The notes under the pieces: model-generated
What the model saw: only the letters and a program-made list of their open reading frames with translations
Database searches by the model: none
Told to the model about the DNA's origin: nothing
Translations under genes and position numbers: made by a program
In this document: in pieces, positions 14,421 through 19,682 of the stretch
Layout of the letters: each line of letters opens with the position of its first letter
Position numbering within the stretch: the first letter of the stretch is position 1
Assembly (NCBI GenBank): GCA_002171655.1
Contig: NHEC01000014.1
Coordinates: forward strand, 1 to 64,000
Source: Planctomycetes bacterium TMED75
GTDB lineage: Bacteria; Planctomycetota; Phycisphaerae; Phycisphaerales; SM1A02
Direction: 5' to 3'
Length of the DNA stretch: 64,000 nucleotides

Positions 14421-14467
14421 AAGCGCTCTCGCTGGTACCCTTGTGATTCAACAAAAGGAGTTGATCA

Positions 14468-15601
14468 ATGCGAGCGATCGTGACCGGCCAGATTGGTGTC
14501 GACAAGAGACCTTACCTCGAAGACGTCTGCAAGCTGGCAGGCGAACGGGGGTCCAGTATCGACATCTACAACGTCGGAAACATGATGTACGGGGAGGCAC
14601 CGGATGTCAGGGCGGGAAGAATCCTCGACTTGCCTCTATCACGTCTGGCCAGCCTGCGACGAGCAGCCTTCAAGGACATCATTTCGGAGAGTTCTCCGGT
14701 AGAGGACAATCCCAACATCATTGTGAACACCCACGCCACCTTCCGCTGGCGTCACGGGCTCTTCAGTGCATTCGATTTCGATCAGATGTCACTGCTCAAG
14801 CCCGACATGATGATCTGTCTTGTTGACAATGTTGAAACCGTGCATCAGCGCCTGCATGACGAACATGACATCGACGCGACCTTGAAGGATTGCATGGTCT
14901 GGCGGGAAGAAGAGATCCTCGCGACCGAATTGCTCGCAAATGCCATGGGCTGCCACGACCAGTTCTACATCCTCAGCCGCGGACGCCATCAGGACACCGT
15001 GGAGACGTGCATGCGAATGATCACGCGCCCCGACGTCCGCCGGGTCTATCCCTCGTTTCCAATGAGCCATGTGGTAGACAAACCTGACGTGCTCGCTGAA
15101 ATTGAGGAATTCAGAGCCTCCATTGCCGAGCATTTCATAGCGTTCGACCCTGCAGACGTGGATGAAAAGCTCCTGCTGGACCGAGCGCTTGATGCCGCCC
15201 GAAATGGCGATGACTGGGTTGAAGTGGAAGCACACAGCTATGGGGGTAAGAAAGGTGCCGAAACGCAGAGACTTCCAGTCCGAGAGGTGCTGGACATCGC
15301 CGGGGATATTGACGGCCAGATCTACATGCGTGACTTCAAGCTGGTCGACCAGTCCGACATGATCATCTCCTACATCCCGGAGCTCGAAGGCGGAGTACCC
15401 GGCCTGTCCAGCGGGGTTGAACGGGAACTTCATCACGCCTGGGAACACACCAAGGAAGTGTACGTGGTCTGGAAACCTGCAAAGGCACCAAGCCCGTTTA
15501 TCACGGAAACGGCAACCAAGATCTTCCCCTCGGTCGAGGATGCACTTGAGTATTTCGCAGAGCAGGGAATGTTCCCACAACGGAACCTCTTCGGACACTG
15601 A
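14468..15601 (+). CDS. Uncharacterised two-domain protein: N-terminal P-loop/AMP-kinase-like domain and C-terminal nucleoside 2-deoxyribosyltransferase-like region
   Basis: N-terminal IVTGQIGVDKRPYLEDV degenerate P-loop; C-terminal VDQSDMIISYIPELEGGVPGLSSGVERELHHAW; stop 8 nt before truA start. Confidence 0.6.
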   Translation: MRAIVTGQIGVDKRPYLEDVCKLAGERGSSIDIYNVGNMMYGEAPDVRAGRILDLPLSRLASLRRAAFKDIISESSPVEDNPNIIVNTHATFRWRHGLFSAFDFDQMSLLKPDMMICLVDNVETVHQRLHDEHDIDATLKDCMVWREEEILATELLANAMGCHDQFYILSRGRHQDTVETCMRMITRPDVRRVYPSFPMSHVVDKPDVLAEIEEFRASIAEHFIAFDPADVDEKLLLDRALDAARNGDDWVEVEAHSYGGKKGAETQRLPVREVLDIAGDIDGQIYMRDFKLVDQSDMIISYIPELEGGVPGLSSGVERELHHAWEHTKEVYVVWKPAKAPSPFITETATKIFPSVEDALEYFAEQGMFPQRNLFGH

Positions 15602-15608
15602 GTCCACC

Positions 15609-16367
15609 ATGCCACGCTACAAGCTCACCGTTGCCTATGAAGGCACAGATTTTCATGGCTGGCAGAAGCAGGAGCCACGGAACCAGGCTCCACTGAGGAC
15701 AGTGCAGGGAGTTCTGGAGCAGGTGGTCGTAAAAGTCGTTCGAGAGCCCGTGGTCCTGGTCGGAGCTTCCAGAACTGACTCTGGAGTGCATGCAGTTGGA
15801 CAAGTCGCCGCATTCTCGACTTCTCGAGAGATTCCGGTCGAACGGCTTCCGCGCGCAATCACATCCCGTTGTCCTGATGACCTCCAGGTGATTCAAGCGG
15901 AAGAAGTCCCTGAGTCATTTGACCCGATCAGTGATGCAGTCAGAAAAAAATACTGCTACACAATTCAGCATGGAAGCGGGCTTCCTCCACTGTTCGATCG
16001 AAGATTGATCTGGCGTACGCACCACGACCTTGAAATCGGTCTGATGAACCAGGCTGCCGATTTACTTGTGGGCATACATGACTTTGAATCATTTGCCAGC
16101 GCTCATCATGGACGAGAAAACACCATTCGCGAAATTCTCAGTTGCCAGGTCACCGAACTCACCAAGAACCGACTGAAGATAGAGGTCGTGGGAAGTGGCT
16201 TCCTGTACAACATGGTTCGAATCATGTCTGGATCACTTCTTGAGATCGGCCGAGGAGCGAGAAGACCCAGCAGCATCACAGAGGCGATCAAGAACCAGGA
16301 TCGCAGGCTGACTGGCCCCACCCTCGGTCCCGAAGGCCTTCGACTGGAGTGGATTGAATATTCATGA
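15609..16367 (+). CDS. truA: tRNA pseudouridine(38-40) synthase
   Basis: YKLTVAYEGTDFHGWQKQ, GASRTDSGVHAVGQVAAF, GSGFLYNMVRIMSG; internal ATG used. Confidence 0.95.
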   Translation: MPRYKLTVAYEGTDFHGWQKQEPRNQAPLRTVQGVLEQVVVKVVREPVVLVGASRTDSGVHAVGQVAAFSTSREIPVERLPRAITSRCPDDLQVIQAEEVPESFDPISDAVRKKYCYTIQHGSGLPPLFDRRLIWRTHHDLEIGLMNQAADLLVGIHDFESFASAHHGRENTIREILSCQVTELTKNRLKIEVVGSGFLYNMVRIMSGSLLEIGRGARRPSSITEAIKNQDRRLTGPTLGPEGLRLEWIEYS

Positions 16368-18389: not shown

Positions 18390-19568
18390 TCAGAGTGAGG
18401 AGACGATCGAAAGAAGGGTGTCCATGACATGTTCCTTCTGCGCCTGAGTCAGATCAGGATAGATTGGGATGGCAATGGTCTCACGAGAAGCACGCTCGGC
18501 TGCAGAAAGATTGAGTTCGAAAAGATCGAGATCTCTGTAACACTCCTGCTGATGCAATGCGAGGGGATAGTAGACTTCCGTCCCGATCCTTGCTTCGGAA
18601 AGTCGGGCGCGAATCATATCCCGGTGTCCCGCAGGCACTCTGATGATGTACTGATTGTAGATGTGCCGACTCGCCCCAGAAGCGGGAAGCGGATAACGAA
18701 TGGGAAGCTTGCTTGTTTCACCCAGTGAAACATCACTGGACAATCCACCCGCTTCACAAATGCAGTCGTCATAAAAACGGGCATTTTCCCGACGGCCTTC
18801 GGTCCAGGAATCGAGATGCCTCATTTTGACTCTGAGCACCGCGGCCTGAAGGGCATCAAGCCTGGAGTTGCAACCGACCTCGTGATGGTAGTACTTGGGC
18901 TCCATCCCGTGGTTGCGCAGGCGTGCCGCACGCGAAGCCATTTCGGGATCTTGAAAAGTCATGACCCCCCCATCACCGAAGCCTCCGAGATTCTTGCTGG
19001 GGAAAAAACTGAAGCACCCGGCCACAGACATTGATCCTGCACGTCGCCCGTGTACATCCTCCGAACCGAGTGCCTGCGCCGCATCCTCGATGACCGAGAT
19101 ACCTTGATCGGCGGCCAGGCCCATGATCGAATCCATATCGCAGCACTGCCCAAAGAGGTGGACCGGCATGATTGCTTTCACGCGCCCTTGCGGTGCTTTC
19201 GATAATGCCACATCCAGTGATTTCGGATCCATGTTGTAGGTAGCTGGATCCACGTCCACCAACAAGGGGATTGCACCAATACGACTGATGGAGCCAGCAG
19301 TCGAAAAGAACGTGTAGGTGGGACACACCACAATGTCACCAGGATTGACATCAGCTGCTTGGAGCGCAAGCTGAATCGCATCAGAACCACTCGCACAACC
19401 GACCGCGCGCGAAGTCGTGCAGTACTCAGCAATGTCTTCCTCAAGTTGAGTGACATTTGGACCGCCAATGAACCACTGGCTTTCGATGACTTCCTTGACC
19501 ACTGGCTCAAGCTCATCACGCAAGCCGGCGTACTGAGCCTTGAGATCTAGTAGTGGAACCTCGATCAT
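18390..19568 (-). CDS. DegT/DnrJ/EryC1/StrS family PLP-dependent sugar aminotransferase
   Basis: VPLLDLKAQYAGL, GCASGSDAIQLAL, VIEDAAQALGS, FFPSKNLGGFGDGGV. Confidence 0.92.
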   Translation of the reverse strand: MIEVPLLDLKAQYAGLRDELEPVVKEVIESQWFIGGPNVTQLEEDIAEYCTTSRAVGCASGSDAIQLALQAADVNPGDIVVCPTYTFFSTAGSISRIGAIPLLVDVDPATYNMDPKSLDVALSKAPQGRVKAIMPVHLFGQCCDMDSIMGLAADQGISVIEDAAQALGSEDVHGRRAGSMSVAGCFSFFPSKNLGGFGDGGVMTFQDPEMASRAARLRNHGMEPKYYHHEVGCNSRLDALQAAVLRVKMRHLDSWTEGRRENARFYDDCICEAGGLSSDVSLGETSKLPIRYPLPASGASRHIYNQYIIRVPAGHRDMIRARLSEARIGTEVYYPLALHQQECYRDLDLFELNLSAAERASRETIAIPIYPDLTQAQKEHVMDTLLSIVSSL

Positions 19569-19682
19569 GGTACGTGCACTCGTGGGCATTTCCTGGCTAC
19601 TCCATTGGCCTTTGGCTATTCCCTTGACCCTTCAAGAATAATGGTATCCACCAACGAGGCGCAAGTCTCTCAATCGGTCGAT

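Follow-up and report, generated by a model that had tools for sequence, protein, structure and literature searches.

The window analysed here, 64,000 nucleotides of Planctomycetes bacterium TMED75 (contig NHEC01000014.1, positions 1–64,000 of the forward strand), encodes a 377-residue fusion protein that is probably (at roughly 0.6) a deoxynucleoside 5′-monophosphate (dNMP) N-hydrolase with a nucleotide-binding pseudo-kinase domain, feeding the deoxyribose-phosphate aldolase DeoC. What was computed comprises the gene, its two folds, the conservation of residues, and the linkage and co-occurrence with deoC; from these we infer the catalytic activity, the substrate and the role of the N-terminal domain.

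A conserved fusion gene in Phycisphaerae

The fusion gene (14,468–15,601, + strand) was delimited from the open reading frame and its homologues; it starts with ATG, and a Shine-Dalgarno-like AAGGAG (14,455–14,460, + strand) lies 7 nt ahead of the start codon. The open reading frame is a real, conserved gene, since full-length homologues occur across the order and class and synonymous codon changes are in excess over non-synonymous ones in comparison with the closest relative (148 versus 51). The reading frame and both motifs quoted from it by a first-pass annotation are present in the sequence. Its neighbours between 11,955 and 19,589 are ordinary: ispF, glycerate kinase, a DedA/VTT membrane protein, truA, a GT4 glycosyltransferase and a PIG-L deacetylase. 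A nearby reading frame at 18,390–19,589 reads like a DegT-type aminotransferase.

Matches to the fusion were found in 40 of 392 sampled Planctomycetota genomes, 38 of them inside the window's class. Full-length homologues were present in every genome sampled from the window's order (31 of 31) and in 7 of the 10 others sampled from the class. Outside the class, one match was weak and partial (G201, E 1.5e-4); the other, a 63% homologue (L031, C466) in a genome of another class (G223), lies on a contig of 6.6 kb in a highly fragmented assembly of 1020 contigs and may represent contamination or transfer. At least 409 relatives occur in a named genome collection, and the best 80 of these 409 are apparently all from Phycisphaerae. 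The distribution looks vertical, and the gene is near-universal in the window's order. The C-terminal domain was always fused, with no stand-alone relative in the 392 genomes of the phylum. No curated family spans the full protein, and our literature searches found no description of a pseudo-kinase/NDT-type fusion. An origin in defence or phage was rejected, as homologues were not found in viral contigs, phage records or plasmid records, the PADLOC defence models gave no match, and the PHROG phage-protein families gave one weak chance match.

The C-terminal domain has an NDT/DNPH1-type fold

The C-terminal domain begins at about residue 188/190 and extends to residue 377 (residues 190–377, 15,035–15,598, + strand). 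The first-pass annotation had likened it to deoxyribosyltransferases, and an AlphaFold2 model built from 42 sequences (pLDDT 89.6) bears this out: in Foldseek searches the model has the fold of the nucleoside 2-deoxyribosyltransferase (NDT)/DNPH1 superfamily, the top match being Desulfotalea NDT (7o62, TMt 0.77–0.79). Human DNPH1 was matched with TMt 0.68–0.71 (8rpt 0.68, 8rqd 0.70), and YtoQ, BcmB (4jen) and MilB (4ohb) were also retrieved. At the sequence level, Pfam PF05014 (Nuc_deoxyrib_tr) stayed below its cut-off (11.6 bits versus 28.8; best member E 0.07), and a profile search of the PDB with this domain returned nothing useful. One homologue (L032:4042-5274, G368) carries an insertion of ~30 residues in a low-confidence loop near residue 260.

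All 153 homologues share five candidate active-site residues without exception: Tyr194, Asp289, Ser314, Glu320 and Ser342. Tyr194 lies in the motif YPSFPM (15,047–15,064, + strand) and would be equivalent to DNPH1 Tyr24 and NDT Tyr7; Asp289 (15,332–15,334, + strand) would correspond to DNPH1 Asp80 and NDT Asp72. The motif SSGVERE (15,407–15,427, + strand) contains Ser314, a putative ligand of the 5′-phosphate, and Glu320, the putative nucleophile, and Ser342 (15,491–15,493, + strand) is a possible equivalent of DNPH1 Ser128′, a position deduced from spacing. The order and spacing of the triad agree with DNPH1, in which Y24, D80 and E104 are catalytic while S98 and, from across the dimer, S128′ hold the phosphate (PMC10603095). 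An hhalign comparison with Lactobacillus leichmannii NDT paired Asp289 with Asp72 and Glu320 with Glu98, though the match was weak and needed an insertion of six residues in a loop; the loop ahead of Glu320 is longer by about that length than in the L. leichmannii enzyme. Ser314 sits six residues ahead of Glu320, the spacing found in DNPH1 and MilB. On these comparisons the family looks like a deoxynucleotide hydrolase, with Ser314 matched by spacing rather than by superposition. Because the Pfam test failed, we do not file the protein as a DNPH1 family member; it is predicted to work like one.

In the proposed reaction, Glu320 would act as the nucleophile, assisted by Tyr194 and Asp289, to release the base of a (d)NMP whose 5′-phosphate would be held by Ser314 and perhaps also by Ser342 of the partner subunit, and the products would be the free base and 2-deoxyribose 5-phosphate. 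Against this hydrolase reading count the identity of the top structural match, 7o62, which is a transferase, the similarity to PF05014 below cut-off, and the assignment of Ser314 through its spacing.

Linkage and co-occurrence with deoC

In a sister order, deoC lies directly 3′ of the fusion gene on the same strand at 25 of 46 loci, and downstream on the same strand within 3.5 kb at 34 of the 46; its product is an NCBIfam equivalog match to deoxyribose-phosphate aldolase. The linked pair belongs to a block, prfA-gene-deoC-...-nif3, that is conserved in part. Eleven loci of the sister order nevertheless link deoC to the fusion gene though prfA was not detected upstream, which argues that the deoC linkage is independent of the block as a whole. 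The two genes also occur together: among 118 sister-order genomes, 81 have both and 24 neither, with 7 and 6 carrying one gene alone. When the set was confined to genomes at least 90% complete (n = 65), 50 had both, 13 neither and 1 each one alone, 63 of the 65 being concordant. Fisher's test gives p ~1e-11 for this co-occurrence, a value that ignores relatedness.

Several findings weigh against the pairing. The joint losses come down to some three events (family f101, part of f7 and one genome of f104), the synteny is that of a block, and in the window's order deoC is not adjacent to the fusion gene. There are also exceptions: two genomes of family f5 (G303 and G372) have the fusion gene and no recognised deoC, and in G421 (L287:29-1386, C41) deoC directly follows prfA and the fusion gene is missing, a natural loss with deoC kept. 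The window genome's own deoC (L284:7986-11555, G000 C33) lies two genes ahead of an aldehyde dehydrogenase, which could be a user of acetaldehyde.

DeoC is usually supplied by deoB and pyrimidine nucleoside phosphorylase. Neither deoB nor the pyrimidine nucleoside phosphorylase domain PYNP_C exceeded its curated cut-off in any of 56 class genomes (0/56 for each). As 29 of 31 genomes of the window's order keep deoC while both are absent over cut-off, deoxyribose 5-phosphate must come from another source, unless an unrecognised phosphopentomutase supplies DeoC. A dNMP N-hydrolase would supply it in one step, and DeoC would then cleave it to acetaldehyde and glyceraldehyde 3-phosphate. Against this argument, PNP-family proteins are present, and other types of phosphopentomutase exist (PMC11641776). 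The PNP_UDP_1 family also covers other nucleosidases, so it is uninformative on the purine route.

These data bear on two other enzymatic activities. The protein might be a genuine nucleoside or nucleotide deoxyribosyltransferase with a base-swapping role in salvage, its kinase-like domain binding the acceptor or the product. We consider this unlikely: the best structural match is indeed an NDT, and the phage enzyme DmtZ, of the NDT family, both hydrolyses dAMP and transfers, but NDTs hold the free 5′-OH by Asp or Asn, as hydrolases do not (PMC12884076), and that residue is replaced here by Ser314 in 153 of 153 homologues. The association with DeoC, moreover, favours release of deoxyribose 5-phosphate. 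Lower still do we rate a ribonucleotide N-hydrolase of the MilB/BcmB kind, acting on CMP, another NMP or a modified nucleotide. BcmB and MilB are among the structural matches, yet such an enzyme would release ribose 5-phosphate, on which DeoC is not known to act. MilB keeps the phosphate-binding Ser as S97 but has F17 where DNPH1 has Y24, and the F17Y substitution shifts its preference to deoxyribose (PMC10603095); by this analogy, the invariant Tyr194 points to deoxy substrates.

Linkage to truA is confined to one clade

The gene truA (15,609–16,367, + strand; Pfam) follows the fusion gene at a distance of 7 nt, measured to its ATG at 15,609, one fewer than the 8 nt given by the first-pass annotation. 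A truA gene lies within 60 nt of the fusion gene in 50 of 80 close relatives, at 6 of 30 loci of the order and at none of the 7 loci sampled from the rest of the class, and no conservation of truA near the fusion gene was seen in the other families sampled. Among the clades sampled, the linkage was confined to the window's own; besides this clade-level link, the fusion gene has no common neighbour in the window's order. We therefore reject a partnership with truA as local synteny, and truA is a neighbour probably without functional link. RNA modification, one of the functions floated at first, is accordingly unsupported, since the linkage is restricted to that clade; nucleotide metabolism, another of them, fits.

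A sensor or signalling protein of TIR/SLOG-like kind, or an RNA-modification partner of TruA, is very unlikely. The C-terminal fold is distantly akin to Sir2/SLOG-type domains by structural search, and truA does adjoin the gene in the window and in many close relatives, but the defence, virus, phage and plasmid searches found nothing of this kind, the distribution seems vertical and near-universal in the order, and the truA link is missing in the other sampled clades.

The N-terminal domain is a putative pseudo-kinase

Residues 1–187 (14,468–15,028, + strand) form the N-terminal domain, in which a kinase-like P-loop had been noted. That domain call is right: Pfam AAA_17 scored above cut-off (E 2.5e-8), a family-profile search of the PDB returned the archaeal-type adenylate kinase 6ln3 (E 5e-10), and Foldseek matched the domain to the same structure (TMt 0.73). 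Structure prediction and fold search, proposed earlier as a check, gave two folds, one adenylate kinase-like and one of the NDT superfamily. The window genome also carries a separate canonical adenylate kinase.

The P-loop region VTGQIGVDKRPY (residues 5–16, 14,480–14,515, + strand) has been rewritten. The window reads GQIGVDKR, with Lys-Arg in place of Lys-Ser/Thr exactly as the first-pass annotation had observed, and the loop that it called degenerate is conserved across the class. Counted over 153 aligned homologues, the family form is GxxG-x-D-K-K: G7, G10 and K13 are retained, Lys13 being invariant, while position 12, canonically Gly, is Asp in 139, Asn in 9, Glu in 4, His in 1 and Gly in none. 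Position 14, canonically Ser or Thr, is Lys in 136, Arg in 7 and otherwise one of a few residues, with one Thr and no Ser among the types listed. Residues 87–99, NTHATFRWRHGLF (14,726–14,764, + strand), are nearly invariant, and here the kinase motif DTH reads NTH, with Asn87 for Asp in all 153. Features of the nucleotide-monophosphate (NMP) side, G37, M40, R59 and H89 (GxxMY, R59 and TH), are retained in the same alignment.

Decay of the P-loop in a single genome was rejected, as the altered loop is conserved in the 153 homologues; its constancy identifies it as a class-wide pseudo-kinase loop rather than local decay. The protein is not filed as a member of the adenylate kinase family: NCBIfam NF003122 (archaeal adenylate kinase) scored 27.8 bits against a cut-off of 155, and the pattern GxxGxGK[ST] is absent, position 14 being Lys or Arg in 143 of 153. 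We infer that the domain acts as a pseudo-kinase, binding a nucleotide monophosphate without using ATP-Mg. Its ATP/Mg site would have been lost and its nucleotide-monophosphate side kept, and it probably binds a nucleotide, either delivering it or gating the hydrolase. Were the domain instead an active kinase whose P-loop is unusual, the protein would be a bifunctional kinase/glycosidase. This reading would agree with the invariant Lys13 and the retained NMP-side motifs but is highly improbable, because Gly12 and the Ser/Thr that bind phosphate and Mg have been lost from practically every homologue, and the Asp of DTH is Asn in all 153.

Discussion

The preferred reading, a dNMP N-hydrolase upstream of DeoC, can be extended to the class. 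Tentatively, and at somewhat less than even odds, we suggest that Phycisphaerae break down deoxynucleotides or clean their pools by a route that bypasses nucleosides, in which a dNMP N-hydrolase gated by a pseudo-adenylate kinase passes its product to DeoC and replaces the nucleoside phosphorylase–phosphopentomutase route. If so, a core, unnamed protein of Phycisphaerae would gain a function, and the supply of DeoC would be explained in bacteria with no recognisable deoB or pyrimidine nucleoside phosphorylase. Human DNPH1, which sanitises the nucleotide pool, would then have a bacterial counterpart in this protein, whose built-in pseudo-kinase may serve as a nucleotide sensor.

The closest known systems each share part of this arrangement. 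DNPH1/Rcl, taken together with the CMP hydrolases MilB and BcmB, has the fold of the C-terminal domain, the Tyr-Asp-Glu triad and a Ser six residues before the Glu. By contrast with these enzymes, the fusion adds an adenylate kinase-like domain, and its C-terminal domain is larger, with additional helices and an extended loop ahead of the Glu; Pfam detects no similarity there at cut-off. Fold and triad are also common to NDTs (7o62, 1f8x), from which the fusion differs in the Ser for Asp at the 5′ pocket, the extra domain and the partnership with deoC. Short archaeal-type adenylate kinases (Aeropyrum pernix 6ln3, OdinAK) resemble residues 1–187 in fold and in NMP-side motifs, whereas the fusion lacks the P-loop Gly and Ser/Thr, has NTH for DTH and falls below the NCBIfam cut-off.

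Fusions of comparable design are known. In Zobellia galactanivorans, a nucleotide-metabolism enzyme, HGPRT, is likewise joined to an adenylate kinase domain, but that kinase is active and its partner is a phosphoribosyltransferase (PMC7326950). Phage DmtZ is likewise an NDT-family dNMP hydrolase, and in the NDT-dUTPase fusions such an enzyme is joined to another nucleotide enzyme; these phage enzymes, however, serve Z-DNA synthesis, and the partner is a dUTPase rather than a pseudo-kinase (PMC12884076).
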